Assembly (NCBI RefSeq): GCF_014174255.1
Contig: NZ_JABEQJ010000035.1
Location: 1-50,628, forward strand
Direction of reading: 5' to 3'
DNA from: Gluconacetobacter sacchari
GTDB lineage: Bacteria > Pseudomonadota > Alphaproteobacteria > Acetobacterales > Acetobacteraceae
DNA: 50,628 bases
The notes beneath the pieces are model-generated. The model had not been told where the DNA came from. It worked only from the letters and a program-made list of their open reading frames with translations, and did not search any database. The translations under genes were made by a program, and so were the position numbers. Positions 4,489 through 23,287 of this stretch are shown here, one piece after another (within the stretch, counting starts at the first letter, position 1; the number at the start of each line of letters is the position of its first letter).

Positions 4489-4516
4489 CCGAGCGCCCTC
4501 GTCCGGACATCATTAG

Positions 4517-4554
4517 ATGAGAATGATTCCTATTGCAAATAAGAATCTTTCGCA
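4517..4554. promoter_or_regulatory. Tandem Fur-like operator between hmuT and the haem receptor
   Basis: The divergent promoter carries two overlapping matches to the classical iron box. The first, GATGAGAATGATTCCTATT (4517-4535), is close to ATGAGAATGATTCTCATT. The second at 4534-4554 has outer arms TGCAAAT and TTCGCA around AAGAATC. The same 21-bp arrangement recurs at 8041-8061. Iron-dependent repression of both haem operons is inferred. Whether Fur itself or another alphaproteobacterial iron regulator binds is unknown. Confidence 0.7.
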
Positions 4555-4592
4555 CTAACCGTCGACACGATCAGCCGGAGATCAAATGTGTG

Positions 4593-8147: not shown

Positions 8148-9248
8148 CTATGGCAGGGGCGTCATCGTCCGACGCGCCGCCATGATGATCTGCCGGCACA
8201 GGTCGAGATCGGCGACCGCCTCGCGGAGCGGGGTACGCGGCGGCACGCCCATGACGACGGCCTCATGGAAATGCTCCAGCTCCACGCGGAACGGGTCCTT
8301 GTAGAAAGGACCGAAATTCTGGATGACATTTTCCGTCTCGGTGCTTTTCTGTAGAACCGCGCGGCCGGGCAGATTGCGGATATAGGGCGTATCGTAATGA
8401 ATATCGAGCTTTTCGTGCCCTGAAATCACCTCGATCGTCGCGTCGAAGCGGACGACATCGTCGATCAGGCATTCATAGCTCGTCACGAAATGTCCATGGT
8501 CCAGAAGCGCGTTGATCTGCATGCCGCTCTGCGCGACATGCGCCGCGATGACGCGCCGCGGCGCGCCCAGCAGCATGCGCAGGGCCGACAGCGAATGCAC
8601 ACCCAGCCCGGTGAGAACCTCATACGCCTTCAGCATGGTGGGCGACGCGTCGTCGCCACAGACGGATTTCAGGTCGGCAAGGCGTCTGGCCCGGCCCGAC
8701 GCGACCATGTCCGCCGGAATGTCATCCGTGGGCACGGCAACATCGCTCCAGTTGCGGAAAAACCACGGGCCTTCGCAAATCAGGTCTCGAACACGGGCAT
8801 ACCGCGTCTCGCCCATGTGCGTCAGCAGCGCCTGGCCCTGCGTGAAGGCGGGGGCGTAGCACCGCATGTATCCCACCATGGCCACCCGGTCGGTCTGCTC
8901 GTCCACCTCGATCAGGGACCGCAGATCCGCGTTCGTCAGGCAGGCGGGCTTTTCGAGGAAAACATGCTTTCGGGCCTTCAGCGCGGATCGGGCATGTTCG
9001 CCATGGAACTGGTCCGGACTCAGGATCATGACGGCGTCGATCGAGTCGTCGGAAAGAAGGGCGTCAACCGTGTCGTGGCGATGCGGTATCGCCCATGCCT
9101 CGCCGACACGCGACAGAACCGAGGGCGACGGGTCGTACAGCGCGGTCACGTCATATCGGTCCCGCAATTGGTGCAGGACCGGCAGATGGATAAGCTGCGC
9201 GACCTCGCCGGCGCCAAGCAGGCCGAGAGAAATCTTCGTCATTGTCAC
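8148..9248 (-). CDS. Gfo/Idh/MocA-family NAD(P)-dependent oxidoreductase
   Basis: 366-residue cytoplasmic dehydrogenase. It shows an N-terminal Rossmann motif GLLGAGEVAQ, the family EKPACLTN segment with the catalytic Lys (about residue 97), and a C-terminal alpha/beta domain. The start has AGGAG ten bases upstream and overlaps the stop of the PI-PLC/phosphatase gene (ATGA). Family members oxidise inositols, sugars or glycosides. An inositol 2-dehydrogenase-like role would fit the upstream inositol-phosphate-releasing fusion and the IolE-like protein in the opposite operon. An alternative is oxidation at C3 of a glycoside as a first step of oxidative cleavage. Substrate is not readable from sequence. 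Confidence 0.85.
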   Translation of the reverse strand: MTMTKISLGLLGAGEVAQLIHLPVLHQLRDRYDVTALYDPSPSVLSRVGEAWAIPHRHDTVDALLSDDSIDAVMILSPDQFHGEHARSALKARKHVFLEKPACLTNADLRSLIEVDEQTDRVAMVGYMRCYAPAFTQGQALLTHMGETRYARVRDLICEGPWFFRNWSDVAVPTDDIPADMVASGRARRLADLKSVCGDDASPTMLKAYEVLTGLGVHSLSALRMLLGAPRRVIAAHVAQSGMQINALLDHGHFVTSYECLIDDVVRFDATIEVISGHEKLDIHYDTPYIRNLPGRAVLQKSTETENVIQNFGPFYKDPFRVELEHFHEAVVMGVPPRTPLREAVADLDLCRQIIMAARRTMTPLP

Positions 9249-11536
9249 TTTTCTCCTGTGGTGGGCGCATGCGGGTCCTGCGCCCGGCTGGTCTTCAAGG
9301 CGGATATCAGCTCGTCAGGCGTGCAGAGGCCCGTTGCGGCCTTGCAGGCCGGCACGGCGGGAAACCCGAGCGAAGGCCGGGCGTGCCCAGGCGCCGCGCG
9401 CAAGGCTTCCGGCGTCTGGGATTGGAAGAAGACGCGGATAGCCGTCTTGCCCGCATCGGTGTCGTAGACGGCAAATCCCAGCGCCGAACCGACGGGTATC
9501 TCGTCTGGCGCGTAACCCGGCGCGCGCACATGGGTATCCATCAGGCCCAGAAGCGGTGCGATGGTGTCGTCATGCCCGACATAGAGCCGGAAGTCCGGTC
9601 CGCTGGTCTCGGTCAGATCCGCGATAAGGCGCTCACGCAGGTCGCGGGACAGGGGTTCGCCGATCGCGGGCGGCCGCACGATGCTGTTCAGCATCGCGGC
9701 ATGCAGCGCCGAAAACAGTCCGAGTTGGGCGGCGCCCACGGACGCCCCGTCCAGGCGCGTTTCCGGCTTGCCGTCCAGATAGGCCAGCATCAGCGCCTCG
9801 GCGATGGAGGAGCCTTCGCGGATCGGGCCGGCGAGGATCAGCCCGTGATTCGCGCCATCCGGCTGGACACGGTTCACGGATGTCAGGAAGCTGCACAGGC
9901 CGCCATTGCAACGGACAAGCCGCGCCAGTGCCGCCAGCGCGTCCGTCCGTCGCGCAAAAACCCGGTCTGCGTCCGGCAGCCGCCGCACGATGGCGCGCAT
10001 GTCGAAGCGCGTCGGGTCGGCGTCCAGCGCCGAGAAGATCGGGTCGGGCACCCCAGGGCGCAGATGCGTGACGCTGATGGAGCACGCGGGCGCGAAGCCG
10101 CGGGTAAACGCCTCGGCGCTGGCGACCGTGCGGGGTTCCGAATTGGCGCGTATCGCCAGGGTCTGCGGCGCGGGGCAGCCACGCGCCGGAATCAGGCCGT
10201 TCTGATCCAGCCATTCACGCTCGAACCGTCCGGTCGCGCGCATGCCCGCGGCACCGCGCGGCGTCAGGTCGCCGGGGGCGACCTCCCATCGCGGCCATCC
10301 ACCGGGAACGGTCGCCTCCCCGGGTTCCTGTCCCGGAAGCGGAGAGCGGATGCCGTGCCGCATGACCATGACGACCCGGCGCAGATGGAGCCCGTGCCGG
10401 CCGGCGGGCTCGATCCCCTGCGCGATACAGCCTGCCGGGGCGGTGACGGGGTTGCACCGCGCGGCGCCTCCAGCCGGAAACCCGACCCGGTACCCGCTCC
10501 AGCGCGCCGGTTCACCGTCGGGATAATCCGTGCTGACGATCTGCGCCCCGCTGGCCAGCATGGCGTCGCGGCGTGCGATGCGCCCGTCCCGGGCCTCGAT
10601 GGTGTTCACGTCGGCCCGCGTGCGTACAAGCAGGTGGCGGCGCACCAGCGCCGTGATCCGGTCGGTCGGACCATCGTTGAGTTCCGCGAAGGCGGCGTCG
10701 GGCGCGTCGGGGGCCGCATTGGTAAAGGCGACGCGGCCGCGCAGGGACGGGTGTCCCTCGAGATAAAGCGGCCCGTTATCGCGTTGGTCGAGCAGAAACA
10801 CGATCTTGCCCCGGCTGCGGGCGAGCGTCGGCCACCCACGCGCGCTGACGGCGGCCGAAAGCGACGGATCACGGCCGCGCACGTCATCGGGGGTCAGCAG
10901 GTCGTTCGGCGCGAAAACGGACCGGATCGTCTCATCGAGCGTGTCGAACGCTCCGGCGTTGAAAAGCTCGGCAGGCGTCGTGCCGGGAACATCGTTCGAC
11001 TGTTCGATTTCGAGAATGACGAAGACCGGAACATGGTCGGGATGGGCGTGCGACCAGGTGCGAATCTCTTGCAGGCATGCCTTGAGCGGCTGGCAGGTCG
11101 CATGCTGGTCGATGTCCGGAATATGCATGACCTTCAGGCCGGGCTGGCGCATGAGCGCGGCCTCGGCCGGAGGAAGCGGCCATTTTTCTTCAGGGTGACC
11201 GGGGCGATGCGGATCCGCGAAGCGGCCGCCCTGGCTGTCGGCGTAAATATCGAGTTCGAGTTGGCGAACGCCCTGATCGAGTTGCGTCGAAAGGGGCGGG
11301 TGCGCGTAGTCGAGCAGCCGCGCGAGATCGGGGGAGGTGCGTCCGATCTCCGCGAGAATGCCGGGCTCGACCCCGGCATGATAGCTGTTATGCGATCCGA
11401 TGACCTGCACCTGATCCAGCCGCAGCGATGCCGGATCGAATGTCTCATCGGCCTTCGCCGCGCCAACCGCCGCCAGGAACAGCGCGGCCGCAAGGGCCGC
11501 GCTCCGGTGATGACGGCGCTGTGGGAAAGCATTCAT
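9245..11536 (-). CDS. Secreted fusion: Ca2+-dependent PI-PLC domain plus histidine acid phosphatase
   Basis: 763 residues with a signal peptide (about 1-29). Residues 30-370 match the PI-PLC-C1 family: VIGSHNSYH (His49, His53), RQLELDIYAD, VMHIPDID, EIRTWSHAHPDHVPVFV and VSTDYP. This part should hydrolyse phosphatidylinositol-type lipids and release a phosphoinositol head group. Residues 385-720 form a histidine acid phosphatase of the AppA/Agp phytase and glucose-1-phosphatase branch: RHGIRSP at 393-399, GDLTPRG, NSEPRT, and the proton-donor pair His655-Asp656 in VGHDDTIAPL. Both domains keep their visible catalytic motifs, so one exported chain could cut and then dephosphorylate. It lies between a TonB receptor and a Gfo/Idh gene with overlapping stop/start codons on both sides. 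I know of no described enzyme with this architecture. Confidence 0.88.
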   Translation of the reverse strand: MNAFPQRRHHRSAALAAALFLAAVGAAKADETFDPASLRLDQVQVIGSHNSYHAGVEPGILAEIGRTSPDLARLLDYAHPPLSTQLDQGVRQLELDIYADSQGGRFADPHRPGHPEEKWPLPPAEAALMRQPGLKVMHIPDIDQHATCQPLKACLQEIRTWSHAHPDHVPVFVILEIEQSNDVPGTTPAELFNAGAFDTLDETIRSVFAPNDLLTPDDVRGRDPSLSAAVSARGWPTLARSRGKIVFLLDQRDNGPLYLEGHPSLRGRVAFTNAAPDAPDAAFAELNDGPTDRITALVRRHLLVRTRADVNTIEARDGRIARRDAMLASGAQIVSTDYPDGEPARWSGYRVGFPAGGAARCNPVTAPAGCIAQGIEPAGRHGLHLRRVVMVMRHGIRSPLPGQEPGEATVPGGWPRWEVAPGDLTPRGAAGMRATGRFEREWLDQNGLIPARGCPAPQTLAIRANSEPRTVASAEAFTRGFAPACSISVTHLRPGVPDPIFSALDADPTRFDMRAIVRRLPDADRVFARRTDALAALARLVRCNGGLCSFLTSVNRVQPDGANHGLILAGPIREGSSIAEALMLAYLDGKPETRLDGASVGAAQLGLFSALHAAMLNSIVRPPAIGEPLSRDLRERLIADLTETSGPDFRLYVGHDDTIAPLLGLMDTHVRAPGYAPDEIPVGSALGFAVYDTDAGKTAIRVFFQSQTPEALRAAPGHARPSLGFPAVPACKAATGLCTPDELISALKTSRAQDPHAPTTGEK

Positions 11537-14388
11537 CAGAATTGCCCGGTCAGCCCTGCGAGATACGTCCGGCCCGTCTGGACAAAGGCGCCATTGGCCG
11601 AGCCGTCATAGGCGAGATAGGCTTTCCCCTTGCCCATCGTTTCCCAGTAGGCGGGCGTATTCAGCAGGTTCTGCATCGCCAATGTTCCCGTCAGACCCCA
11701 GCCGAACCTGTATTTCATGCTGAGATCGAGCCGCTGCGTCGGTTGCAGATAGAAGTCCGGCAGAGTCGAATTGACGCTGAGAAGCTGCGGTCCGATATAA
11801 TTATAGTTCAGGTCGAAATGGACCGGACCCCGGTTATAGAACACGCCAAGATTATACATCATCTCCGGCGCGCGCGGCAGCGCGGTATTCGGATGTCCGG
11901 CAATGTTGCTGTCGGCGACCGAATGCTGGAGCGTGATGTTGCCGTTCACGCCAAAGCCGCCGAGCCAACCCGGCAGGAAATACAATGTCTGCTGGGCATT
12001 CAGTTCGATGCCTTCCAGCGTCGCGCCGCCGCCGTTCATGGGCATCTGGTATTCGGTCCCGTTATTCGTATAGGCGTTGGTCGGCACGTTGCCACCCAGC
12101 GTCGAACTGTTTGACGTGCCGGAGACGGAGGTGAAAACGAATTTCTGGATCTGCTTGTAATAGACCGACGCCGAAACCACGCCGGAATGGTGGTTGTAGA
12201 GTTCTCCGGAGAAGTCGAAGACGGTGGCGGTCGTCGGGCGCAGATTCGGGTTGGGCTCCGAAACCGAGATGATGCGGTTGGTCAGAGAGTCCAGCGTCAG
12301 GGAGGTCGCGCCGTTGATCAGGCCGAAGGCCGGGCGCGTCAGGGAGCGGCGCACGGAAAAACGCAGGACACTGAGGTCCGTCGGGCGCCAGTTGATGTTG
12401 AGGTAGGGAAGCGGCGTGCCATAGGACTGCTTCACGTCGATGAAGGACCCTGTCGCGTCGTCGCCGTTCGATTTCCAGTGCGCGCCGCTGAAATCGGTAT
12501 ATTCGTAGCGGAAGCCAGGATGGATATCGACGGGGCCGGCCTGGAGGTTCAGTTCGACGAAAGCCGCATAGATGCGTTCGGAGCCACGGCTGGTATTCGC
12601 ATTCCAGTCGTTCTTCGTGTAATCGCCCGCGCCGTTGGGATCGTTCTGATATTTGTACGGGACGGTCGTATTCTTGATCCAGTCGCGGTCAAGCAGGCGG
12701 AAATCGCCGGCGGCGCCGCCGAACGCATTCACGTTCCTGCCCGGAACGGCGCCGACGACCGGGCCGGCCGCATTGTTGTAGGCCCAGTTCTCGCCACCGA
12801 AGAAAGGCCCGTCATACACGAAGTTATTGTCGTCGTGGAAATACGGATGATGCCAGGCCTGCCGCTGCGTGTCGCTGACCTTGAAGCCGAATACGATGGA
12901 TTTCAGGATGTCGGAATGGAAGCGATAGGCGGCGCCGGCATGGATGCCGAACATGTCCGCGGTACTCCGGGAATCACGTCCCTGCGTCTTCCAGAAGCGG
13001 TCCGTGTTCTGATCGTAGAGCCGGGAAAGGGCGGCGGACGACGCAACGGCGCGCGGCAGCGTCGTGTTGGCGACATCGAAGGTGAAGGGGCCATTGACGA
13101 TCGTGTTGCCATACATGCTGGCCTCGACCTGATTGGGGCTGGACTGGACGCCATAGCTGTTGAACACGTCATAATTGACGGTCCAGTCGCCGGTGCGCGT
13201 GGTGCCTCCGAGTTTCTGCGTGGTCAGCAACTGGGCCGAGTCGTCGGTTTCGAAATACTGGCCGCGCGTGGCCGTGGCGGACTGGTACACGCCATCGGAG
13301 CCATAGCCCGAATTCGCGCCGCGCAGCGACACCTGATTGTCGTTTATGTTGACGTTGTACTGGCCGTACGTGCCCAGAAAATAGAGTTCCTGGTTGTCAC
13401 CCTTGTAATTGAGCGAGAGGGAACCGCCATAACGCTTGAGGGAACTCGAAAACAGATCATATTTCAACTGTTGCGTCGAAAGCTGCGATGCCTGGTTCAG
13501 GCTCGTCACACCCGCCTGGGACAGCAGGGTCGGCGTGTACGATGTGTTCGGCGCGACGGCATCGGCCAGAACACCCTTGGACGAATAATAGCCCGTGGCG
13601 TAGACGCCGAAACGTCCATCCCTGCCGAAACGCCGGGCGAACTCCACCTGCGCGGTGCCGCCGAGATCCTGCGTGCCGATCTGCGCGGCCTTGTCGTTCA
13701 ACTGTCCCTGCAACGTGATCTTCTGGTAGGGGCCGACGAAATCGAAGGCCGTGGGCGTCCGGATATCGATGGCGCCCCCGACCGCATCGCCATCCATGTC
13801 GGCGGTGGTGCTTTTGGACACCTTGATCGACGTGATGCCATAGGGGGCGAGCATATCGAATGAAATGGCACGGGTGGACGGGTCCGCCGGGGCAATGCGC
13901 TCGCCATTGAGCATATAGGCGTTGTAGCTCGAATCCAGGCCCCGGATGGTCATGTACTGCGCTTCGCCCGTCGCGGCCTGGCCGCTGGCCATGTCGCTGT
14001 AAGCCGATACGCCCGGCAGTCGCGTCAGGATGTCGGAAAGGTTCGTCTCGGGCGCCTGCTCGATCTGCTCGCGAGACATCACGCTCGCCACGCCCGGGCC
14101 CCGGCGCTGCTCGTCGAGCGCGGCGGCAACGCTCCCTCCGCGCAGCGCCGTGACGTTGATGCTCTCGGTGTTGTCGGCAGGGGCGACGGTCTTCCGCGAG
14201 GCAGCGGGGGCGGATGCCGCCGATGCCGGCAGCGCCGGGGCCGCGGTCTGGTTGATGGCGTGCGGCTCAGTCTTCTTGCTGCGGGTCTTGAGCTTGTGCG
14301 TCGTCGGCTGCGCCATCGCGGGCGCGATGACGCCTGCCGCCGCCAACGGGATCAGATATCTCGTCAGCGCTTTCTTGAACGATATCAT
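11536..14388 (-). CDS. TonB-dependent receptor (Caulobacter/Xanthomonas carbohydrate-type)
   Basis: 950-residue outer-membrane receptor. I chose the ATG at 14388, which follows AGAGGA by a normal distance and opens a signal peptide ending AMAQ. A longer frame from 14436 lacks these. After the signal comes a Lys/Ala/Pro-rich linker, a plug (SREQIEQAPETNLSDILTRL, TIRGLDSSYNAYMLNGERI, a DMDGDAVGGAIDIRT segment) and a large barrel ending in Phe. The VLRFSVRRSLTRPAF and NPNLRPTTA segments are typical of the large carbohydrate/phytate-type receptor class. It is first in the minus operon, and its stop TGA overlaps the ATG of the PI-PLC fusion (TGATG). It is likely to import the fusion's substrate or product. 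Confidence 0.88.
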   Translation of the reverse strand: MISFKKALTRYLIPLAAAGVIAPAMAQPTTHKLKTRSKKTEPHAINQTAAPALPASAASAPAASRKTVAPADNTESINVTALRGGSVAAALDEQRRGPGVASVMSREQIEQAPETNLSDILTRLPGVSAYSDMASGQAATGEAQYMTIRGLDSSYNAYMLNGERIAPADPSTRAISFDMLAPYGITSIKVSKSTTADMDGDAVGGAIDIRTPTAFDFVGPYQKITLQGQLNDKAAQIGTQDLGGTAQVEFARRFGRDGRFGVYATGYYSSKGVLADAVAPNTSYTPTLLSQAGVTSLNQASQLSTQQLKYDLFSSSLKRYGGSLSLNYKGDNQELYFLGTYGQYNVNINDNQVSLRGANSGYGSDGVYQSATATRGQYFETDDSAQLLTTQKLGGTTRTGDWTVNYDVFNSYGVQSSPNQVEASMYGNTIVNGPFTFDVANTTLPRAVASSAALSRLYDQNTDRFWKTQGRDSRSTADMFGIHAGAAYRFHSDILKSIVFGFKVSDTQRQAWHHPYFHDDNNFVYDGPFFGGENWAYNNAAGPVVGAVPGRNVNAFGGAAGDFRLLDRDWIKNTTVPYKYQNDPNGAGDYTKNDWNANTSRGSERIYAAFVELNLQAGPVDIHPGFRYEYTDFSGAHWKSNGDDATGSFIDVKQSYGTPLPYLNINWRPTDLSVLRFSVRRSLTRPAFGLINGATSLTLDSLTNRIISVSEPNPNLRPTTATVFDFSGELYNHHSGVVSASVYYKQIQKFVFTSVSGTSNSSTLGGNVPTNAYTNNGTEYQMPMNGGGATLEGIELNAQQTLYFLPGWLGGFGVNGNITLQHSVADSNIAGHPNTALPRAPEMMYNLGVFYNRGPVHFDLNYNYIGPQLLSVNSTLPDFYLQPTQRLDLSMKYRFGWGLTGTLAMQNLLNTPAYWETMGKGKAYLAYDGSANGAFVQTGRTYLAGLTGQF

Positions 14389-14847
14389 CGAACGGATCCT
14401 CTTGAAGGAAAGAGACGGACGACACGCCGGCCGCATGGGACATCCGGCTGTCGCAGGCGGCGGGGTCGCGGGAAATTCGGGAGGGCGAGAGACGGGAAGG
14501 GGTCACATCCGCCACCCCTGTTCGACGGGTATAAAACAATAGAACGGATTTAAATTTCTATTGTCCAGATTCGCAACGAGAAGCCATATCGCCTCGTGGT
14601 CTTTCGCGTCCTATCATCAGAAATCCTGATAAAACTTGGAAGATGACCTCCGATGCGGCTTTAATCGCTTTCCTTGGGGATTTGTGTGAAGGCTGTGTTA
14701 AATCTCCATCCATGTCGATTTGTGCCAAAAACCCGGATGGACTTGGGAATAAAATACGACATATGTAATTAAAGAGGCGGCATGAGGCCGGCATGAGGTG
14801 CTTCTGGCTCTCAGCGCCCGTTCAGGGCGGTGCAACGGGAGAGGGCG
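14389..14847. other. Divergent promoter region of the phosphoinositide-glycan locus
   Basis: This 459-bp gene-free stretch is far more AT-rich than its surroundings and separates the two divergent operons. It holds the inverted repeat at 14536-14564. Around 14741-14770 the plus strand has a TTGGGA / TATGTA-like pair that could be a weak promoter for the GH76 operon. No convincing small ORF was seen. Confidence 0.6.
14536..14564. promoter_or_regulatory. Inverted repeat, candidate operator for the ROK regulator
   Basis: Perfect 9-bp arms ACAATAGAA and TTCTATTGT are separated by 11 bp containing ATTTAAAT. The AT-rich arms with a CG near the centre resemble the sites of NagC/Mlc-type ROK repressors, and a ROK regulator with a winged helix is encoded in the plus operon (20763-21971). 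It lies about 150 bp upstream of the receptor start. The assignment is inference. Confidence 0.55.
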
Positions 14848-15951: not shown

Positions 15952-17240
15952 GGAGAGGTCTGTCGATCATCCTGGCGGGCTGCGCGCTGCTTTTCGGCCA
16001 GCGGGCGTCGGCGGGAAGCCTCACGGTGTTCTGCTCGTCGAGCGGCGCGGAAATGGCGCTCTGCCGGTCCGAAACCCAGGCCTGGTCCCGCGCGACGGGA
16101 AACACGGTGACACTCGTCCCGCTGCTGTCCGACTGGGGCACGATCCTGCCGCTCTATCGGCAACTTCTGTCGGCGCAGAAGACGATGGTCGATATTCTGG
16201 TCATGGACGGAACATGGCTGGGCACGCTGGCTCCCATGCTCGGCACCATCGCGCCGGCGCCCGATGATGGCGATCTGGCGCCCGGTCCGTTCGTCAGCGC
16301 CGGGCGCGAGGTCGCGCTCCCATGGTACCGCGATATCGGTCTGCTGTTCTACCGGCGCGACCTGCTGGAAAAATACCGCCTTCCCGTGCCGCAAAGCTGG
16401 GACGACCTCGCCGCCGAGGCGCGCACGATCCAGAACGCCGAACGGGCGCACGGAGACGGGTCCTTGTGGGGCTATGTCTGGCAGGGCCGGACGGCGGAAA
16501 GCCTGATATGCAATGCCCTCGAATGGTTCGGCCCCGCCGGGGGCACCATCGTTGCCGAGAGCGGGGCGGTCGATCTCGACAACGCGGACGCGCGCGCGGC
16601 TCTGGCGCGGGCCGCGGGCTGGATCGGCACGATCTCGCCCGCGGGCGTCCTCTCGGACGACGAGGAAGCGGCGCGCGGGGTTTTTCAGGACGGCCATGCC
16701 GTGTTCATGCGGAACTGGGTCTATGCCTGGGCGCTCGCCAATGATCCGCAGAGCCCGATCGCGGGAAAGGTCGGGGTCGCGCCGCTGCCCCGCGCACGCG
16801 CTTCCGAACCGCCGCGCGGCGTCGATGGCACGGTCTATCTCGGCATGGCGCGCGGCACCGCCCATCCGGCGGAGGCGCTTTCGCTCATGCGCTATCTGAC
16901 GTCGCGCGCGGTCGAACGGGCGCGCGTCGTCACGGGGGCTTATATCCCGGCGCGCCGATCGCTGCTCGACGAACCCGACGTGCGCGCGGCCCTGCCTGTT
17001 CTCGCGACGATCCGGTCGGCGCTGCTCCATCCCGTCCTGCGTCCGATGGCGCAGACCGGCGTGGATTATCCCCGTGTGGCCTGGCTCGCGGCAAACGGCT
17101 TCCACGATGCGTTGCGCGACCGGCACGATGCCCCGGACACGCTGCACCGGCTTGCGAACGTTTTCGAGGTCATGGCCCACCGTGGCCAGTGGCCCGGAAG
17201 GCCGGCGGACAAGAACGCTCTTCAGGAGAAGACAGAATGA
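15948..17240 (+). CDS. ABC sugar-binding protein (family 1)
   Basis: 430-residue periplasmic solute-binding protein. It has an N-terminal signal (RRGLSIILAGCALLFGQRASA) and the classical family-1 fold cues SWDDLAAEARTIQ, GYVWQGRTAESLICNALEW and DGHAVFMRNWVYAWAL. It should deliver an oligosaccharide or polyol to the two permeases encoded downstream. The ATG overlaps the GH76 stop, and its own stop overlaps the next gene, so GH76 and binding protein are made together. This suggests the mannanase product is the ligand. Exact ligand unknown. Confidence 0.88.
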   Translation: MRRGLSIILAGCALLFGQRASAGSLTVFCSSSGAEMALCRSETQAWSRATGNTVTLVPLLSDWGTILPLYRQLLSAQKTMVDILVMDGTWLGTLAPMLGTIAPAPDDGDLAPGPFVSAGREVALPWYRDIGLLFYRRDLLEKYRLPVPQSWDDLAAEARTIQNAERAHGDGSLWGYVWQGRTAESLICNALEWFGPAGGTIVAESGAVDLDNADARAALARAAGWIGTISPAGVLSDDEEAARGVFQDGHAVFMRNWVYAWALANDPQSPIAGKVGVAPLPRARASEPPRGVDGTVYLGMARGTAHPAEALSLMRYLTSRAVERARVVTGAYIPARRSLLDEPDVRAALPVLATIRSALLHPVLRPMAQTGVDYPRVAWLAANGFHDALRDRHDAPDTLHRLANVFEVMAHRGQWPGRPADKNALQEKTE

Positions 17241-18109
17241 CCATTCAGATCGGAACGGCCCCGGACGCCTGGGGCGTATGGTACGCCGAGGATCCCCGCC
17301 AGACACCGTGGGAGCGTTATCTCGACGAGGTGGCGCAGGCCGGTTATGGCTGGACCGAACTGGGCCCGTGGGGCTACCTGCCGACGGACCGTTCCCGGCT
17401 CGCGGAGGCATTGGCCGCGCGCCATCTCGGCCTGTGTGGCGCGGCGGTGGTTCATCCGCTGGCGGAGGCGAACGCCCTGGAGACCCTGCGGGCGCGCCTG
17501 CGGCCATTGTGCGAGACGCTGGTCGCCACCGGCACGCCGTGGCTCCTGCTCATGGACGATTCGGACGTCTATCCCACCCGGCAGGGGCGTATCGCATCGC
17601 CCGAAACATGGCGGCACATGATGGGCGTCATCACCGAGGCCGGGCGCGTCGTCGCGCAGGACCATGGGCTGCGGCTTCTCTTTCATCCGCATGTCGGCAC
17701 GGCGGTCGAAACCGAGGAGGAAATCCTCCGTCTTCTGGCCGACACGCCGGAAGACCTCGTGGCCCTCTGCTACGATTTCGGCCACCACGCCTATACCGGC
17801 GCGGATGCGCTGGCCTTCATGCGCGCGCATGCGGACCGGATTCCCTATTATCACTTCAAGAATCTGGACGGTTCCATCCATGCCCGCGCGATGGAGGCGG
17901 CCACGCCGTTCATGGAGGTGTTCCAGAACGGCGTGATGTGCGAGCTGGACAGGGGGGTCATCGATTTCGCGGAAGTGGTGGCCTTTCTCAAGGCGCGGAA
18001 TTTCGAAGGCTTCGCCGTGGTCGAGCAGGACATGTATCCGTGCCCGCCGGAAAAGCCGCTGCCCATTGCCCGGCATAACCGCGAAGCCCTGCGGCGGCTC
18101 GGCCTGTGA
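17237..18109 (+). CDS. IolE-like sugar isomerase/epimerase (xylose-isomerase-like TIM barrel)
   Basis: 290-residue cytoplasmic protein of the AP-endonuclease-2/IolE family. It begins with GTAPDAWGVW and TELGPWGYLP, as in inosose-dehydratase-like proteins. Metal-binding candidates are Glu in TELGP, His in FHPHVGT, Asp and His in CYDFGHHAY, His in YHFKNLDG and Glu in MCELDRG. The start has AGGAGAAG upstream and overlaps the binding-protein stop. A role in dehydrating or isomerising a keto-inositol or keto-sugar made by the Gfo/Idh enzyme fits. Family members that eliminate 3-keto-glycosides are the main alternative. Confidence 0.8.
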   Translation: MTIQIGTAPDAWGVWYAEDPRQTPWERYLDEVAQAGYGWTELGPWGYLPTDRSRLAEALAARHLGLCGAAVVHPLAEANALETLRARLRPLCETLVATGTPWLLLMDDSDVYPTRQGRIASPETWRHMMGVITEAGRVVAQDHGLRLLFHPHVGTAVETEEEILRLLADTPEDLVALCYDFGHHAYTGADALAFMRAHADRIPYYHFKNLDGSIHARAMEAATPFMEVFQNGVMCELDRGVIDFAEVVAFLKARNFEGFAVVEQDMYPCPPEKPLPIARHNREALRRLGL

Positions 18110-19038
18110 CGGCAATGCGGGCGCCGTCCTCGTACGCCATCGGGATCGATGTCGGGGCAACCAAGGTCGCGGCGGCCTGGGTAAACCTGCATGACGGCAC
18201 GCTCGGGCCCGTCAGCCGCATTCCAACCCGCCGCGACGCGCGGCGGGAGGCGATCGTAGACGATATCGTGGCGCTGGTCGGCACAGCCACACCTCCCCCC
18301 GGCCCGGACGCCATCGCAGCGGCCGGCGTGGGCGTGGCGGTTCCCGAACTGGTTGACCTGCGCGGCGAAATCCGCAGCGCCTGGAATTTCCCGCTTCCCG
18401 GTCTCGTCGAGCGCCTGACGGCGGTCGCCGGCGCGCCTGTCAGGGCGGAGAGCGACGTCCGTGCCGCCGCCCTCGCCGAAGCGCGCTTCGGCGCGGGGCG
18501 GGGCTGCGACAATTTCGCGTATTTCTCTCTCGGTTCCGGGATGAGCTACACACTTTGCCTCAACGGTCGCCCCTACGCGGGCGCGCACGGTTTCGCCATC
18601 CATTTCGCGAGTTCCGAAATGGCGGTGCCGGTGCGCGATCGTTCGATGCTCGCGGCCGCCATCCCCGAAGACTACGCCTCGGGCCTGGGCATGGCGCGCC
18701 TGTGGGAGGAGCGGGGGGGCGCGCCGCTGCCGCAAGGGGTCCATAGTCTTGAAGGGCAGGCCGCCCTGGGCAATCCACGGGCGCTGGGGGTCATCGCCGA
18801 TGCCGCCGGAATGGGGGGGCGCCTGATCGCGCAGGCGGTGAACATGCTCGACCCCGAGAAGCTCATTCTCGGCGGCGGGCTCGGCTGTTCCACCGGGCTC
18901 TACAGAACGCGGCTTGAAACGCAGATCCGCGCCCATATCTGGGAGCGGTCATGTGCGGATATTCCGCTGCTCGTGGCCGAACTTGGCGAGGAAGCAGGCA
19001 TCATCGGCGCGGCTCTGGCCGCGTGCGCGGCGCGATAG
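18106..19038 (+). CDS. ROK-family protein, kinase-like, without the zinc motif
   Basis: 310 residues, no DNA-binding domain. The phosphate loop IGIDVGATKVAAAW and the C-terminal LILGGGLG fit the actin-like ROK fold of sugar kinases. Unlike typical ROK glucokinases, the ExGH/CxCGxxGC zinc segment is absent; its place is taken by a GAHGFAIHFASSEM stretch. The start is GTG 18106, overlapping the previous stop (GTGA), or ATG 18115. It could phosphorylate mannose, glucosamine or a related sugar, or be a sensor. The missing zinc site makes a divergent specificity likely. Confidence 0.75.
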   Translation: MTAMRAPSSYAIGIDVGATKVAAAWVNLHDGTLGPVSRIPTRRDARREAIVDDIVALVGTATPPPGPDAIAAAGVGVAVPELVDLRGEIRSAWNFPLPGLVERLTAVAGAPVRAESDVRAAALAEARFGAGRGCDNFAYFSLGSGMSYTLCLNGRPYAGAHGFAIHFASSEMAVPVRDRSMLAAAIPEDYASGLGMARLWEERGGAPLPQGVHSLEGQAALGNPRALGVIADAAGMGGRLIAQAVNMLDPEKLILGGGLGCSTGLYRTRLETQIRAHIWERSCADIPLLVAELGEEAGIIGAALAACAAR

Positions 19039-19045
19039 GCGCCGG

Positions 19046-19948
19046 ATGTCGCGCGGCAGCCTGACGCACAAGATGCCCGCATGGCAGCCATGGGCCTTGC
19101 TGCTGCCCGCGCTCGCCACGCTGGCGGCGCTGGTGCTGGTCCCGTTCGTCCAGACCGTGATTCTCGCCTTCAGCCACGATCCGCACGGCTTCGTTCCCGC
19201 GCGGCCGGGCGCGACGTTCGAGAATTTCCATATCCTGCTGGGCGATCCGGGCTGGTGGCGCGCGGCGCGCACGACGGTCGCGTTCGCGCTGGCCGCCGTT
19301 CCGGCCGAGACGGCGCTGGGCGTGGTCCTGGCCGTGCTGCTTCGTCAACTGGGCAGGCGGCCGCGCGGGGCCGTGCTGGCGGTCATGCTGCTGCCCTGGG
19401 CCGTGCCCGGCGTGGTCGCCGCGCGGCTGTGGGGCTGGATGCTCAACGACCAGTACGGCGTGCTGAACGCGGTACTCGTCGATGTCGGGCTGATCCGCCA
19501 CGGCGCTGCCTGGATGGCGAACCCGGCCGGGATGCTCTTCGTCATGGTCATCGTCGACATATGGCAAGCGACGCCCTTCATGACGCTGCTCGCCCTTGCC
19601 GGGCTCCAGGCCGTGCCGCCGGACGTGGTGAACGCCGCGCGCATGGACGGCGCGAGCGGCTGGCAATGCTTCGTCCATGTCACCCTGCCTCTGCTCCGGC
19701 CGACACTTGCCGTCGCGGCGCTGTTCCGCCTGCTCGACGCGCTGAGAATGTTCGATCTTTCCAGCGTTCTCTACGGCGCGGATATGAACGGCATGACCCT
19801 GTCCGTCTTCGTTCAGATGCAGATCGTGCAATTCGGCGCGGCGGGTTACGGCGCGGCGTCGGCGCTCGCCACGCTGGGGGTCATCGGCCTCGTCGCCGCC
19901 CTGTTCTGGCGATGCGCCATCCCGCCGCGCCGCGGGGGCGATCGCTGA
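19046..19948 (+). CDS. ABC sugar permease, MalF/UgpA-like
   Basis: 300-residue inner-membrane permease with about six hydrophobic segments. The cytoplasmic EAA-type loop reads AVPPDVVNAARMDGASGWQCFVHVTLPLLRP, the contact for the ATPase. I chose ATG 19046, since the frame upstream belongs to the ROK gene's 3' end; ATG 19073 is also possible. The stop and next start overlap as TGATG. It pairs with the following permease to form the channel for the sugar delivered by the 15948-17240 binding protein. Confidence 0.88.
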   Translation: MSRGSLTHKMPAWQPWALLLPALATLAALVLVPFVQTVILAFSHDPHGFVPARPGATFENFHILLGDPGWWRAARTTVAFALAAVPAETALGVVLAVLLRQLGRRPRGAVLAVMLLPWAVPGVVAARLWGWMLNDQYGVLNAVLVDVGLIRHGAAWMANPAGMLFVMVIVDIWQATPFMTLLALAGLQAVPPDVVNAARMDGASGWQCFVHVTLPLLRPTLAVAALFRLLDALRMFDLSSVLYGADMNGMTLSVFVQMQIVQFGAAGYGAASALATLGVIGLVAALFWRCAIPPRRGGDR

Positions 19949-20766
19949 TGCGCCCCGCCCGTCTCTCCTGGCGCTGGCTGGCCCTGGCCGCGGCATGCGT
20001 CCAGACGATTCTTCCGCTGTACTGGGCAGTCGTGACGTCCTTCCGGCGGGGGCCGCAACTTTTTTCGACCGCGTTGCTCGCCCGTCCCGATTTCGGCAAT
20101 TATCGCGTGGTGCTGTCGGAGCCCACATGGTGGCGCGACGCCGCCAATTCCCTGGTCTCGGCCGCCGCCGTGGGGCTGATCGCCCTGTTTCTGGCGCTTC
20201 CCGCGGCCTATGCGCTGGGGCGCATGTCCTTTCGCGGGCGCAGGACGGTTCTCGCCCTGCTGCTTGGCTGCGCGATGCTGCCGCAGATCGCGATCCTGTC
20301 CGGCCTGTTCACCATCATTTCCCGCCTCGGCCTCTATGACCGGCTTGGGGGCCTGATTTTCGCCGATCTGTCGTTCGCGCTGCCCTTCGCGATCTGGCTC
20401 CTGGCCGGCTTCTTTCGCGATCTGCCGCGCGATCTCGACGAGGCTGCCGCGTTGGATGGATGCGGCCTGCTGCGGCGCCTGGCGATGATCCACCTGCCGC
20501 TGATCTGGCCGGGCATCGTCGCGACCGGCCTTCTGATTTTCATGAACTGCTGGAACGAGTTCCTTTTCGCCCTGGCCTTCACCCTGAGCGAGTCCGCGCG
20601 TACACTGCCGGTCGGTATCGGCCTCATCTCCGCGTCCGGCCGGTTCGAACTGCCTTTCGGAATCATCATGTCTGCTTCCCTGCTCGCGACGCTGCCTCCT
20701 GTTTTCCTCGTCCTGCTGTTCCAGCATCGCATCGCGGCGGGGCTGACGGCGGGAGAGGTGAAATGA
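19948..20766 (+). CDS. ABC sugar permease, MalG/UgpE-like
   Basis: 272-residue inner-membrane permease, second half of the sugar channel. It has six predicted hydrophobic segments and an EAA loop (DLPRDLDEAAALDGCGLLRRLAMIHLPLIWP). The NxxxxSxxxA-type segment ANSLVSAAAVG and the FNCWNEFLFA-like segment MNCWNEFLFAL are typical of CUT1 permeases. It is coupled to the upstream permease by TGATG and to the regulator downstream by ATGA. Confidence 0.88.
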   Translation: MRPARLSWRWLALAAACVQTILPLYWAVVTSFRRGPQLFSTALLARPDFGNYRVVLSEPTWWRDAANSLVSAAAVGLIALFLALPAAYALGRMSFRGRRTVLALLLGCAMLPQIAILSGLFTIISRLGLYDRLGGLIFADLSFALPFAIWLLAGFFRDLPRDLDEAAALDGCGLLRRLAMIHLPLIWPGIVATGLLIFMNCWNEFLFALAFTLSESARTLPVGIGLISASGRFELPFGIIMSASLLATLPPVFLVLLFQHRIAAGLTAGEVK

Positions 20767-21971
20767 CCGAACATGACGTGCCCGACGGCGCCGGACAGGC
20801 CTTCTCGCGCATCTACAACCGGCGCCTCGTTTTCGAACTGCTGCATCAGAACGGGCCGTTGAGCCGTGTGGACATCGCGCAGCGCGTCGGCCTCAAGCCG
20901 CAGACGATTTCGGGCATTACGCGCGAACTGCTCGATCAGGGGCTGATTCGCGAGGCCGGGCGGTCCACGGGGTTGCGGGGGCAGCCCCAGACCTACCTCG
21001 CGCCCAATCCCGAGGCCGGCTACGCGATCGGCATGCACGTGGATCGCGGGCGGATTTCGGCCGTCCTCGGAGATCTCCTGCTCAATATCGTCGCCCGGGC
21101 CGACTGGTCGGGCGATACCGGCAATCCGGTGGACACGATGGCGGTCATGGCGCGGCTGGCCGGCCAGCTCATGACGGACAGCGGCATCCAGCACGCGGCG
21201 GTCTGGGGGCTCGGCCTCGTGCTGCCGACGCTGAACGCCGACATGTATGAAGTCGAGATGCGCATGCCTGGCTGGGAAATGTGGCGCGGCTTCGATCCGA
21301 TCGCCGACCTGGCCGGTCGGCTCGGGATTCCGGTCCTGATGGAAAACGATGCCACGGCGGCGGCGGTCGGCACGCTCCTTCACCAGTCCGGCGGGTCGCT
21401 GCGCAATTTCGTGCTTGTCTATATCGGGTATGGAACCGGCGCGGGCATCGTCGTGGACGGCATGCCGATGAAGGGCGTGCATGGCAATGCCGGCGAATTC
21501 GGCCTGCTGCCGGCACCGGGCGGCGAAGGCGTGATCGACGACCAGCTTTCGCTCCACGCCGTCGCGCGCTTGCTGGACCAGCCCGTGGAGGAACTGACGC
21601 CGGACAGGCTGGCGGACCTGCATCGCCGGCGTGACAGCCGTCTCATGCACTGGCTGGAAGATGCGGCCACGACCCTGCGCTACCTCATTTCAATCATGGA
21701 AACGGCCTTCGATCCCGAGACGGTGCTGCTGGGCGGCACGATGCCGGAATCGATCCTCTCGGCACTGGTCGAACGGGCCTATCCGCTTCTTCCGTCCCTC
21801 AGCGCCATCCGCGCGCGCGACCTGCCGCGCTTTTCCGTCGCCAGCCTCGTGACGGACGGTCCCGTCATCGGCGGCATGAGCCTGCCGATCTTCGTCAATA
21901 CGCGCTCGGACTTCCATCATCTCTATATCCGGCACGCCGCGGGCGACGAGCGGCCTTTCGATCATCGCTGA
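20763..21971 (+). CDS. ROK-family transcriptional regulator (NagC/XylR-like)
   Basis: 402 residues. The N-terminus is a winged helix (NRRLVFELLHQNGPLSRVD, VGLKPQTISGITRELLDQGLI, about residues 18-65) followed by an actin-like sugar-binding domain (ENDATAAAVG, YIGYGTGAGIVVDG, GNAGEFGLLPAP). The cysteines of the usual ROK zinc site are absent. It is embedded between permease and ATPase genes and probably represses the divergent operons through the inverted repeat at 14536-14564, released by a sugar. Self-regulation through the plus operon would follow. Confidence 0.85.
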   Translation: MTEHDVPDGAGQAFSRIYNRRLVFELLHQNGPLSRVDIAQRVGLKPQTISGITRELLDQGLIREAGRSTGLRGQPQTYLAPNPEAGYAIGMHVDRGRISAVLGDLLLNIVARADWSGDTGNPVDTMAVMARLAGQLMTDSGIQHAAVWGLGLVLPTLNADMYEVEMRMPGWEMWRGFDPIADLAGRLGIPVLMENDATAAAVGTLLHQSGGSLRNFVLVYIGYGTGAGIVVDGMPMKGVHGNAGEFGLLPAPGGEGVIDDQLSLHAVARLLDQPVEELTPDRLADLHRRRDSRLMHWLEDAATTLRYLISIMETAFDPETVLLGGTMPESILSALVERAYPLLPSLSAIRARDLPRFSVASLVTDGPVIGGMSLPIFVNTRSDFHHLYIRHAAGDERPFDHR

Positions 21972-22015
21972 CCGCGCGTTTCGGCGTCCTGACTTTTCCA
22001 CGGAGCCTGCCGCCC

Positions 22016-23131
22016 ATGGCCCTCGTCGAACTGAAGAACATCCGCAAGACCTATCACGCGGAAGAGATCGTCCGGGGCGTTTCCCTGTCCGTCGCGCGGG
22101 GCGAGTTCGTGGTCTTCGTGGGCCCGTCGGGCTGCGGCAAATCGACGCTGCTGCGCATGATCGCGGGGCTGGAGGACATCTCGTCCGGCGAACTGCTGAT
22201 GGACGGCCAGTTGATGAACGCGGTCGAGCCGGCCAGGCGCGGCCTGGCCATGGTGTTTCAGTCCTACGCCCTTTATCCGCACATGACGGTGCGGCGGAAC
22301 ATGGAATTCAATCTCAGGCTCGCGAAGCTTCCGGCCGCCGAACGCGCGCGGCGCGTGGAGGACGTCGCGCGCATTCTCAAGCTGGACTCCTGCCTCGACT
22401 GCAAGCCCGGCGCACTGTCCGGCGGCCAACGGCAGCGCGTCGCCATCGGGCGCGCCATCGTGCGGAACCCGAAGCTGTTCCTGTTCGACGAGCCGCTGTC
22501 CAATCTCGACGCCGAGTTGCGCGGGCACATGCGGGTCGAACTCGCGATGCTGCATCGCAGGCTCGGCGCGACGACCATCTACGTGACGCACGATCAGGTC
22601 GAGGCCATGACGATGGCGGATCGGATCGTCGTGCTGCGCCAGGGCGCGATCGAGCAGGTCGGCACGCCGCTCGACCTCTATCTCCACCCGCGCAACCGCT
22701 TCGTCGCCGGATTCATCGGCAGCCCGGCGATGAATTTCATCCCCCTGACCATCCTGAAAACCGGGGGTGCCGAAACGCGTGTCGCACTGTCCTGCGGGGT
22801 TCATCTCACGCTGCCGATCGGGTGCCCGTCACGGCTGGCCGGCACGTCGGCCACGCTGGGCATCCGGCCGGAGCACATTCATGTCATGGATGGCGCAGAC
22901 GCGCCGCTTCGGGGCACCATCCTGACCGTCGAACATCTCGGGGCGCTGACGTTCCTGCATGTTCGCCTCGGGCGGGCGGAAACGGTGGTGATCCAGGTCG
23001 GGGGGTATCGGGACGGCCGGGTCGGGGCCGACCTGTCTTTCTGCTTCCCGCCTGCATCCTGCCACCTCTTCGATGTCACGGGCGCGTCGGTCGCCCGGAT
23101 GATGGCGGACGAAGCGCCGTCGCAGGCCTGA
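22016..23131 (+). CDS. ABC sugar transporter ATPase, UgpC/MsmK-like
   Basis: 371-residue CUT1-type ATPase. Motifs are Walker A (GPSGCGKST), Q-loop, LSGGQRQRVAIGRA signature, LFLFDEPLSNLD Walker B and the switch in VTHDQVEAMTMADRIVVL. After about residue 240 comes the regulatory OB-fold domain (IRPEHIHVM). It is the last gene of the plus operon, 44 bp after the ROK regulator, with a new ribosome site (ACGGAG). It powers the two permeases at 19046-20766. Such ATPases can serve several importers. Confidence 0.9.
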   Translation: MALVELKNIRKTYHAEEIVRGVSLSVARGEFVVFVGPSGCGKSTLLRMIAGLEDISSGELLMDGQLMNAVEPARRGLAMVFQSYALYPHMTVRRNMEFNLRLAKLPAAERARRVEDVARILKLDSCLDCKPGALSGGQRQRVAIGRAIVRNPKLFLFDEPLSNLDAELRGHMRVELAMLHRRLGATTIYVTHDQVEAMTMADRIVVLRQGAIEQVGTPLDLYLHPRNRFVAGFIGSPAMNFIPLTILKTGGAETRVALSCGVHLTLPIGCPSRLAGTSATLGIRPEHIHVMDGADAPLRGTILTVEHLGALTFLHVRLGRAETVVIQVGGYRDGRVGADLSFCFPPASCHLFDVTGASVARMMADEAPSQA

Positions 23132-23206: not shown

Positions 23207-23236
23207 TTGACAGCAATTCCGGCACGCAAATATAGT
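23207..23236 (+). promoter_or_regulatory. Sigma70-type promoter of the kinase/PLP-enzyme operon
   Basis: A consensus -35 TTGACA (23207-23212) and a -10 TATAGT (23231-23236) are separated by 18 bp. This is the strongest housekeeping promoter seen in the window. It also shows that coding sequence cannot begin at the TTG of the -35 box, and sets the kinase start downstream of about 23243. Confidence 0.7.
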
Positions 23237-23287
23237 CCAGCCCGGCACCTGTCTCGATCCGCCCGTCCGCTGGAAAGGCCCCGGCCC

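Follow-up and report, generated by a model that had tools for sequence, protein, structure and literature searches.

Organization of the locus

The locus spans positions 8148 to 23131 of the window, the whole 50,628-nucleotide stretch of Gluconacetobacter sacchari DNA that was analyzed, and consists of two divergent operons. The minus-strand operon encodes a TonB receptor, a phosphatidylinositol phospholipase C (PI-PLC)/histidine-phosphatase fusion, and a Gfo/Idh dehydrogenase, and the plus-strand operon encodes a GH76 glycoside hydrolase, a sugar-binding protein, an IolE-like protein, a ROK kinase-like protein, two permeases, a ROK regulator, and an ATPase. Profile searches and ORF reading found all of the named genes in the window, each matching its own family; ORFs were picked with a simple, crude gene caller that was used for ORF choice alone.

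8148..9248, minus strand: Gfo/Idh-family dehydrogenase (PF01408, 79 bits; alternative ATG start at 9242)
9245..11536, minus strand: exported PI-PLC-C1/histidine acid phosphatase (Agp/phytase-like) fusion, 763 amino acids (PF16670 and PF00328)
11536..14436, minus strand: TonB-dependent receptor, TIGR01782 type (TIGR01782, 511 bits)
14437..14829, no strand: putative divergent control region (short blocks conserved in five loci)
14830..15951, plus strand: exported GH76 glycoside hydrolase with the catalytic pair D113/D114 (PF03663, 127 bits)
15948..17240, plus strand: sugar ABC solute-binding protein (SBP_bac_1, 90 bits)
17237..18109, plus strand: IolE-like TIM-barrel enzyme (AP_endonuc_2; TIGR04379, 147 bits, cutoff 290)
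18106..19038, plus strand: ROK-family sugar kinase-like protein (PF00480, 117 bits)
19046..19948, plus strand: ABC permease F, MalF/GlcT-like (PF00528, 60 bits)
19948..20766, plus strand: ABC permease G, MalG-like (ORF, position and homology)
20763..21971, plus strand: ROK-family transcription regulator (winged helix-turn-helix and ROK)
22016..23131, plus strand: MalK/UgpC-type ABC ATPase (profile searches)
23207-24385: APH-like gene, the next gene beyond the locus
24382-25734: class III aminotransferase, beyond the APH-like gene

Both operons are tightly packed. The receptor and fusion genes overlap by 1 nucleotide (nt), and the fusion and Gfo/Idh genes overlap by 4 nt if the latter starts at its GTG or are separated by 2 nt if it starts at the alternative ATG. 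On the plus strand, 4-nt overlaps join GH76 to the binding protein, the binding protein to the IolE-like gene, the IolE-like gene to the ROK kinase-like gene, and permease G to the ROK regulator. The permease genes overlap by 1 nt, and gaps of 7 nt and 44 nt precede permease F and the ATPase, respectively. The sequence between the operons, which we take to be a control region, carries an imperfect 27-nt direct repeat; DNA alignment revealed blocks around TAAAnCAA...GATnTAA and GTGTGAAGnCTnTnTTAAAT common to five loci.

Glycosylphosphatidylinositol (GPI) contains an ethanolamine-phosphate group, and the APH-like and aminotransferase genes were considered as users of it. This idea was dropped: the pair accompanied none of the nine named loci described below, some of which ended there at a contig boundary.

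Distribution and co-conservation

The same gene set, in reshuffled order, turned up in nine named species of acetic acid bacteria, as expected from the original prediction of a conserved system at home in this group, and the fusion is present in eight of the nine. Carriers include Acidomonas methanolica, several Gluconobacter species, Brytella acorum, Novacetimonas, and Acetobacter senegalensis; with the window, 10 distinct loci of acetic acid bacteria carry the set. The whole set occurs together in five genomes of five genera (G000, G037, G079, G226, and G279, the locus of G226 ending at a contig end). Because the set recurs in other genera in reshuffled order, chance adjacency is excluded.

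Among 299 genomes of the family, strong GH76 matches occurred in 6, every one inside this cluster, and full-length fusions in 9; the two co-occurred in 5 genomes (hypergeometric probability 4e-8, kinship ignored). An α-mannosidase adjoins 8 of 10 full-length fusions (5 GH76 and 3 GH92), and the fusion adjoins the GH76 operon in 9 of the 10 loci of acetic acid bacteria (window plus nine named) despite the reshuffling. Draws of 385 genomes from the class and 398 from the phylum, which overlap each other and hold few members of the family, returned a full-length fusion in the window's own genome only. The family, class, and phylum searches for the fusion scored two or three candidates per genome and may miss further copies. 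Nine stretches of viral contigs matched the search pattern, none of them encoding a relative of the fusion.

A scan of contigs with two exact peptide patterns yielded at least 30 loci, which are IolE positive by construction and in which nearby species are counted separately. Gfo/Idh accompanies the IolE-like gene in all nine named loci and in 18 of 21 others; in the named loci it lies at the far end (L062 to L064) or between receptor and GH76 (L065 to L070) and is never missing. The ROK regulator is present in 29 of 30 IolE-like loci, the exception (L066) ending at a contig end. Permease G is kept in eight of the nine named loci and in all five of the type 1 Rhizobium loci described below. 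The ATPase lies at the locus in three of the nine (L062, L067, and L070) and again in all five Rhizobium loci; contig ends truncate L063 and L066.

Several observations count against the function that we propose below. Distribution is patchy: the six further genomes sampled from the genus of the window all lacked a strong GH76 match. In Novacetimonas maltaceti the cluster comes without the fusion, with an OprB porin encoded on the corresponding side, and GH76 of Gluconobacter oxydans NBRC 14819 contains an internal stop.

The lipase/phosphatase fusion and its receptor

The PI-PLC-C1 half of the fusion matched PF16670 over positions 1 to 329 of 329 (400 bits), and the same 763-residue ORF matched His_Phos_2 (PF00328, 81 bits). 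The nearest solved structures are 5fyo and 3h4w for the lipase half and glucose-1-phosphatase 6rmr (4e-34) for the phosphatase half. Because H49, H138, R393, H394, R397, H655, and D656 are invariant across nine aligned fusions, the protein looks intact; H49 and H138 are presumably the catalytic histidines of the lipase half. RHGIRSP at 393 and HD at 655-656 match the RHGxRxP and HD motifs of the Agp/AppA branch 2, the final proline not being kept in all nine. Agp/AppA histidine acid phosphatases and Ca-dependent bacterial PI-PLCs (PF16670) thus each match one half, but here the two are joined in one exported protein. Taken with its neighboring α-mannosidases, this upholds the predicted phosphoinositide-type fusion.

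An orthologous TonB receptor (84 to 87% identity) is present in five of the nine named loci and a divergent one (26 to 28%) in the other four. A receptor of the same family is paired with a stand-alone phosphatase in three genomes (G054, G131, and G180). Two genomes (G192 and G008) have the fusion and a TonB receptor without a mannosidase and own canonical iol genes; there, plain phosphatidylinositol (PI) or inositol phosphate suffices as the substrate of the fusion.

If its reaction runs through a 1,2-cyclic intermediate, a PI-PLC needs a free inositol 2-OH, and mannosyl inositol phosphorylceramide (MIPC) and PI-mannosides carry mannose on inositol O-2. Because that position is occupied, both would be chemically less likely substrates for such an enzyme than the original prediction proposed. 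A Ca-dependent PI-PLC of Streptomyces reportedly uses the inositol 6-OH, where GPI is substituted, and this would count against GPI in turn; among the literature matches listed, none was by its title a mechanistic study of Ca-dependent PI-PLC.

GH76 and its fungal relative

The GH76 domain scored 127 bits against a cutoff of 25.9. Its best match among solved structures was the fungal CtGH76 (9r4k, 1.1e-20), followed by Lin0763 (6e-12) and, at 2e-8 to 4e-5, by CtDfg5 (6ry0) and named mannanases; CtDfg5 ranked no better than the ordinary mannanases, a point against our preferred account. The family assignment also draws on an alignment of six rows, two of which are the same gene. D113/D114 align with D163/D164 of CtGH76, and 75 of 197 aligned residues are identical (38%, over partial length). 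Membership in the Fungi/Bacteria-mixed GH76 subfamily corresponds to roughly >35% identity to a member (PMC12295086), and the window enzyme lies above this value in comparison with one member, CtGH76. The latter was inferred to recognize GPI-core glycans and is reported, on the evidence of bound fragments rather than turnover, to accept α-1,6-mannobiose glycans generally (PMC12295086). The predicted link between GH76 and GPI glycans may hold for the window enzyme, given that this reported recognizer is its nearest relative among solved structures. The two proteins have in common the DD pair and one aligned disulfide cysteine pair, and both are exported; unlike CtGH76, the window enzyme is bacterial, lies in an importer operon, and adjoins a lipase.

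GH76 is the classic endo-α-1,6-mannanase family. Bacteroides-type α-mannan utilization loci likewise combine GH76/GH92 with a TonB receptor; relative to these, the window adds the fusion and inositol-type enzymes and has an ABC importer instead of SusCD.

The IolE-like protein and Gfo/Idh dehydrogenase

The nearest relatives of the IolE-like protein in both sequence and fold are IolE proteins, as originally assigned. Its TIGR04379 score (147 bits) lies below the curated cutoff of 290, and it matched IolE 3cny at 2e-25 by sequence. The AlphaFold model (pLDDT 86.2) matched IolE structures best (2.8e-22 to 1.9e-20, 3cny and Brucella IolE at the top), with the next matches at 7e-15. Seven residues (H150, H152, D180, H183, H206, K208, and E263), which we take to form the catalytic shell of the active site, are shared with three canonical IolE proteins. 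We propose that the protein is a keto-inositol (β-)eliminase. The next relatives sit beside IolD, IolC, IolG, and an IolB-like protein at one locus (L152) and beside IolD at another (L157), as scored with NCBIfam. By eye, three further loci (L154 to L156) also resemble iol operons. A 31% relative in G008 (L058) was left out of the family alignment.

Gfo/Idh lacks an export signal and probably oxidizes an inositol (or sugar) ring. Its best NCBIfam match, IolG, scored 85 bits, below the cutoff of 355. Its AlphaFold model (pLDDT 90.7) matched dozens of Gfo/Idh structures near equally, with no clear favorite, and was set aside as a guide to substrate.

The locus has a Gfo/Idh protein and an IolE-fold enzyme in common with canonical iol catabolism (iolG, iolE, iolD, iolB, and iolC), but no iolD, iolB, or iolC was recognized at the locus. 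Among nine genomes searched, IolD (TIGR04377) and IolE exceeded their curated cutoffs only in G079, G008, and G192. Lower IolD matches only were found in G000 (best 202 of 715 bits), G037, G226, G279, G174, and G277; in the cluster genomes among them, as in controls, ThDP enzymes gave the sub-cutoff matches to IolD. Curated IolD and IolE are thus absent from four of the five cluster genomes searched. For this reason ordinary inositol catabolism, as implied by the original family assignments, does not explain the locus and was rejected; the same absence also weighs against our own account.

The importer and its relatives in Rhizobiales

The binding protein is nearest to 6jaz (1.2e-64), titled just "ABC transporter, periplasmic substrate-binding protein," and then to MalE3 and trehalose/maltose-binding proteins. 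The nearest solved structure to the ROK kinase-like protein is glucokinase 3vgk (5e-17); the usual ROK zinc and ExGH motifs were not seen in it by eye.

A core of Gfo/Idh, IolE-like protein, and ROK regulator also occurs in Rhizobiales (Rhizobium, Agrobacterium, and Devosia). Type 2 loci add a GH38 α-mannosidase in 11 of 16 cases; in the other 5, GH38 is missing from the stretch fetched, with no obvious replacement by eye. Type 1 Rhizobium loci have the importer core without lipase, GH76, or TonB receptor and add a NagB-like gene in all five cases. Since this importer occurs without the lipase, its cargo need not be lipid derived, and the combination with a NagB-like gene suggests that a small sugar-inositol compound, possibly with an amino sugar in it, is what is taken up. 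The original prediction of imported inositol or sugar is accordingly narrowed: these Rhizobium sequences favor a sugar-inositol core over free mannose or free inositol.

Proposed function and alternatives

Fungi, plants, and animals all display glycosylated phosphoinositides on the surfaces of their cells. We propose, with slightly better than even confidence, that the locus scavenges the α-mannosylated and perhaps also glucosaminylated phosphoinositide head groups of fungal or plant membranes, among which GPI-type glycans fit best. The first steps would be extracytoplasmic: the PI-PLC half would free glycosyl-inositol phosphate from lipid, the phosphatase half would remove the phosphate, and GH76 (GH92 in the sister locus) would trim the mannose part. 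The TonB receptor would carry the pieces across the outer membrane, presumably in that order, and the ABC importer would take in a small glycosyl-inositol. Gfo/Idh could then turn a hydroxyl of the ring into a ketone, and the IolE-like enzyme could cleave the keto product in an elimination like the one by which IolE removes water, while the ROK kinase-like protein would phosphorylate the released sugar and the ROK regulator would sense it.

Alternatively, the functions may be loosely joined, sharing a niche and not a molecule: GH76, the ABC importer, and the kinase would use α-mannan oligosaccharides (mannobiose-type cargo), and the TonB receptor and fusion would scavenge phosphate and inositol from PI or inositol phosphates. 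The standing of GH76 as a mannanase family, the mannobiose glycans that CtGH76 also fits, and the sugar-type binding protein agree with this, as do the 2 of 10 fusion loci with receptor but no mannosidase, the pairing of same-family receptors with stand-alone phosphatases, and the fusion-less N. maltaceti cluster. We nonetheless regard it as possible but unlikely: fusion and GH76 operon stay adjacent through reshuffling, Gfo/Idh is always at the locus while its position varies, mannose use offers no obvious role for the IolE-like gene, and type 1 Rhizobium has the importer without a mannanase.

Two further alternatives alter the chemistry or the source. Gfo/Idh and the IolE-like protein could work together as a glycosidase that acts by oxidation and elimination, as in 3-keto-glycoside pathways (AtOGE, levoglucosan breakdown), splitting an imported α-disaccharide via a keto-sugar without inositol. 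Known clusters pair a dehydrogenase with TIM-barrel (xylose-isomerase-like) "sugar phosphate isomerases," and in B. smithii, the levoglucosan (lgd) case, ABC importer genes are present as well (PMC10628242, PMC7676230). GFOR, DgpA, and aldose oxidoreductases, moreover, are similar to our Gfo/Idh in sequence or fold. The locus TIM barrel is nearest to IolE, however, and not to the Agrobacterium tumefaciens enzymes: its model matched IolE at 2.8e-22 but the keto-glucal hydratase AtHYD (8ro4) at 4.2e-11 (rank 26), AtOGE was not among the best 50 of 1,764 fold matches, IolE was its only strong NCBIfam match, and the two next-relative loci that were scored are both inositol operons. We consider this alternative improbable. 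More improbable still is a plant-type substrate that acetic acid bacteria living with plants would encounter just as rhizobia do: galactinol-like inositol glycosides, or else glycosyl inositol phosphoryl ceramides (Man- or GlcN-GlcA-inositol). The core common to Rhizobium, Agrobacterium, and Devosia would suit it, and mannosidase or amino-sugar enzymes differ by lineage much as the sugars of these ceramides differ between plants. Against it, the ten locus proteins scanned include no glucuronidase-type enzyme, and inositol O-2 is substituted in such lipids, which is unsuited to a 2-OH-dependent PI-PLC.

The preferred reading, scavenging of mannosylated head groups, would join parts that are known enzyme families in a combination that seems undescribed; among the matches listed from the open-licence literature, none described a bacterial route for feeding on the head groups of glycosylated phosphoinositides. 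With the genes defined and the strains named, such use can be tested directly. The locus might account for the way acetic acid bacteria live off yeast and fungal debris, be a source of enzymes for GPI-anchor trimming, and assign a role to an orphan family of IolE-like proteins, one found across Rhizobiales as well.

A more specific version, which we think unlikely as a whole, is that GPI-anchor cores are dismantled to glucosaminyl-inositol, from which glucosamine is expelled by inosose-dehydratase chemistry. The PI-PLC would free the glycan from lipid, the phosphatase would remove the ring phosphate, GH76 would cut Man-α1,4-GlcN, and the importer would take up GlcN-α1,6-inositol. Gfo/Idh would oxidize inositol C2, the IolE-like protein would expel glucosamine in place of water from C6, β to the ketone, and the kinase and a NagB would then use the glucosamine. 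If true, this would be, as far as limited searches show, the first bacterial GPI-anchor-eating pathway and a novel mode of inositol-glycoside cleavage. Two NagB-type genes (242 and 234 bits against a cutoff of 237) lie away from the locus in G000.

Gene content of the locus

The window is the complete contig C35 of a 4.83-Mb Gluconacetobacter sacchari genome (G000). Pfam and NCBIfam agree with the families named in the original prediction, confirming both its genes and its observation of the locus as a whole.

Features of the cluster (Pfam and NCBIfam; permease starts re-read from open reading frames)
8148-9248, minus, Gfo/Idh
9245-11536, minus, PI-PLC/histidine phosphatase fusion
11536-14436, minus, TonB receptor
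14830-15951, plus, GH76
15948-17240, plus, solute-binding protein
17237-18109, plus, IolE-like
18106-19038, plus, ROK kinase-like
19046-19948 and 19948-20766, plus, two permeases
20763-21971, plus, ROK regulator
22016-23131, plus, MalK-type ATPase

Most adjoining genes of both operons overlap by 1 to 4 nt, which makes it likely that the genes of each operon are translated together. By-eye reading of the proteins identified export signals at the N-termini of the fusion, GH76, and the binding protein, and none at the start of Gfo/Idh or IolE-like. G+C dips to 61% in the receptor gene, against 66 to 70% in most of the window. The divergent control region (14437-14829) holds short blocks conserved across five loci, a possible operator for the ROK regulator. 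ROK kinases usually carry ExGH and a zinc motif. The ROK kinase-like protein (18106-19038) keeps DVGATK and an SDVRAAA motif and has GAHGFAIHF at that place, a stretch very similar to one in its Rhizobium counterpart; its catalysis or substrate may be unusual.

Distribution among acetic acid bacteria

With the fusion as query, 33 of 299 family genomes gave a match, full-length in 9 genomes (10 loci). In the stretches around full-length fusions, the cluster set recurs in G037, G079, G226, and G279, which bears out the expected co-occurrence of fusion, GH76, and importer. Among these four, the ATPase is at the locus only in G037 (the G226 locus ends with its contig just after the kinase gene). 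The set stays together even though Gfo/Idh is relocated in G226 and G279 and the G279 receptor is not orthologous (28% identity). An alpha-mannosidase lies beside 8/10 full-length fusions: GH76 in five cases and GH92 in three, namely the second G000 fusion (on contig C6) and the G174 and G277 fusions (the last by coordinates). Only G192 and G008 have receptor and fusion without a mannosidase, and both own canonical iol genes.

The receptor, same-kind fusion, and GH92 of G000:C6 (L038:5725-12979), L039, and G277:C2 form a sister system within the window's genus; a DUF4880 gene precedes the group in L038. At three further loci (L042, L044, and L045), a receptor of the same family (66 to 67% identity) accompanies a stand-alone histidine phosphatase, and no PI-PLC match was found beside it; this pairing hints that the receptor family more broadly serves inositol phosphates or phytate.

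A separate GH76 search of the same 299 genomes matched 24, only 6 of them strongly (above 100 bits); the remainder, at ≤46 bits, probably represent different barrel proteins. Each of the six strong matches lies inside this cluster, five with the fusion. In the sixth, G189, an OprB porin gene stands beyond the TonB receptor, at the expected place of the fusion. The overlap of fusion and strong GH76 has a hypergeometric value of 4e-8, counting genomes as independent of kinship. With no GH76 match in any of six other sampled genomes of the window's genus, the distribution of the locus is patchy, through gain or frequent loss. In the Gluconobacter oxydans NBRC 14819 GH76 gene (L065/G279:C12, near 41.1 kb), a stop codon interrupts the reading frame near the 3' end, through decay or sequencing error.

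An IolE-like alignment was used to scan an 84,980-genome collection, yielding 30 loci: nine from named acetic acid bacteria (75 to 89% identity) and a further 21 (57 to 61%), of which nearly all have titles that place them in Rhizobiales. Five of the nine coincide with G037, G079, G279, G226, and G189. GH76, binding protein, IolE-like, ROK kinase-like, and Gfo/Idh are each present in 9/9, the fusion in 8/9, and the permeases and ROK regulator in 8/9 (L066 is cut at a contig end). The receptor is orthologous in five and divergent in four, and the ATPase gene accompanies the others in 3/9 (L063 and L066 are cut at contig ends).

Rhizobiales loci

Five loci (type 1: L071, L072, L075, L076, and L077) have orthologous importer, Gfo/Idh, IolE-like, ROK kinase-like, and ROK regulator genes; no lipase, GH76, or TonB receptor was found in them. 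All five carry a Glucosamine_iso/NagB-like gene between the IolE-like and kinase genes. The encoded protein scores below the NagB cut-off (106 and 121 bits) and has NPPG where NEPG is usual, so its substrate may differ from GlcN-6-P. The other 16 (type 2, one from a proteobacterial MAG) have a different ABC importer and, in 11, a GH38 alpha-mannosidase, which was not found within the fetched stretches of L082, L084, L085, L086, and L090. L087 to L089 have a GH2 enzyme beside the IolE-like gene and lack Gfo/Idh; the substrate of this variant may be a beta-linked glycoside. GH76 and GH38 go with the IolE core, and GH92 with the fusion; by lineage, the same modules are thus joined to three unrelated alpha-mannosidase families and one amino-sugar-type enzyme.

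Substrate and mechanism

The best solved relative of GH76 in a PDB sequence search was CtGH76 (9r4k, 1.1e-20), ahead of Lin0763 (6e-12), CtDfg5 (6ry0, 2e-8), and named alpha-1,6-mannanases. Identity to CtGH76 is 75/197 aligned residues, above the about 35% that PMC12295086 takes as its criterion for a single subfamily, and the alignment also matches the DD pair and one pair of cysteines. That paper infers CtGH76 recognition of GPI-core glycans from crystal structures with glycan fragments and adds that other alpha-1,6-mannobiose glycans can also be recognized. These are data on binding, not turnover, and leave mannan a possible GH76 substrate. As a single account of the locus, the scavenging of mannosylated phosphoinositide head groups fits best, and we hold it to be slightly more probable than not. 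The main rival, in which mannan use is only loosely coupled to the use of phosphate and inositol, we consider rather unlikely.

Fusion key residues are invariant in nine aligned fusions. A free 2-OH is required by any PI-PLC that proceeds via a 1,2-cyclic phosphate; O-2 is substituted in MIPC, PI-mannosides, and plant GIPC and usually free in GPI. One Streptomyces PI-PLC reportedly uses the inositol 6-OH, and if the fusion's family did likewise, this would rule out GPI and admit MIPC. A phosphoinositide is the plausible target under either chemistry.

NCBIfam, PDB sequence, and predicted fold all place the IolE-like protein nearest to IolE, with which it shares the active-site shell and from which it differs in loops; Gfo/Idh had no decisive relative in PDB sequence or fold comparison. 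The next relatives of the IolE-like protein were read in gene context in 7 other genomes among 270 of a class draw: one (L152) lies beside IolD, IolC, and IolG above cut-off and IolB below it, another (L157) beside IolD, three more are in similar contexts by eye, and two contexts were unreadable. In L152 and L154 to L156, which look like inositol operons, a relative of the IolE-like family seemingly takes the IolE slot; a levoglucosan-dehydrogenase-like Gfo/Idh adjoins it in L152, the only locus so scored.

Inositol catabolism in the ordinary sense is not supported: curated-level IolD and IolE were not found in G000, G037, G226, or G279 (both are present in G079, G008, and G192). IolE eliminates water at the position beta to the ketone. 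Because a dehydratase without IolD would be a dead end, the IolE-like enzyme more likely uses this chemistry on another leaving group. If inositol were oxidized at C2, C6 would be beta to the ketone, and in GPI, glucosamine sits on inositol O-6; on a bold reading, the enzyme would therefore expel glucosamine from a GPI-derived inositol glycoside. Such expulsion would fit the type 1 NagB-like gene and the sugar-type binding protein.

The locus is built of known families; the combination and probable substrate seem to be new. Among the matches listed, no open-licence paper presents such a locus in its title or the opening of its abstract, a scope that makes this weak evidence.

Neighboring genes

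An APH-family phosphotransferase and a class-III aminotransferase gene (23207-25734, 4-nt overlap) encode proteins each most like half of PRK06148-type proteins, and may form a kinase/phospho-lyase pair for amino alcohols; the pair was not seen beside the cluster in other genomes' loci. Apparently unrelated transport genes flank the cluster: a FecCD-type permease gene on the left (2510-4555) and, on the right (28718-32816), genes for a TonB receptor and, after it, an SbmA/BacA-like ABC protein.
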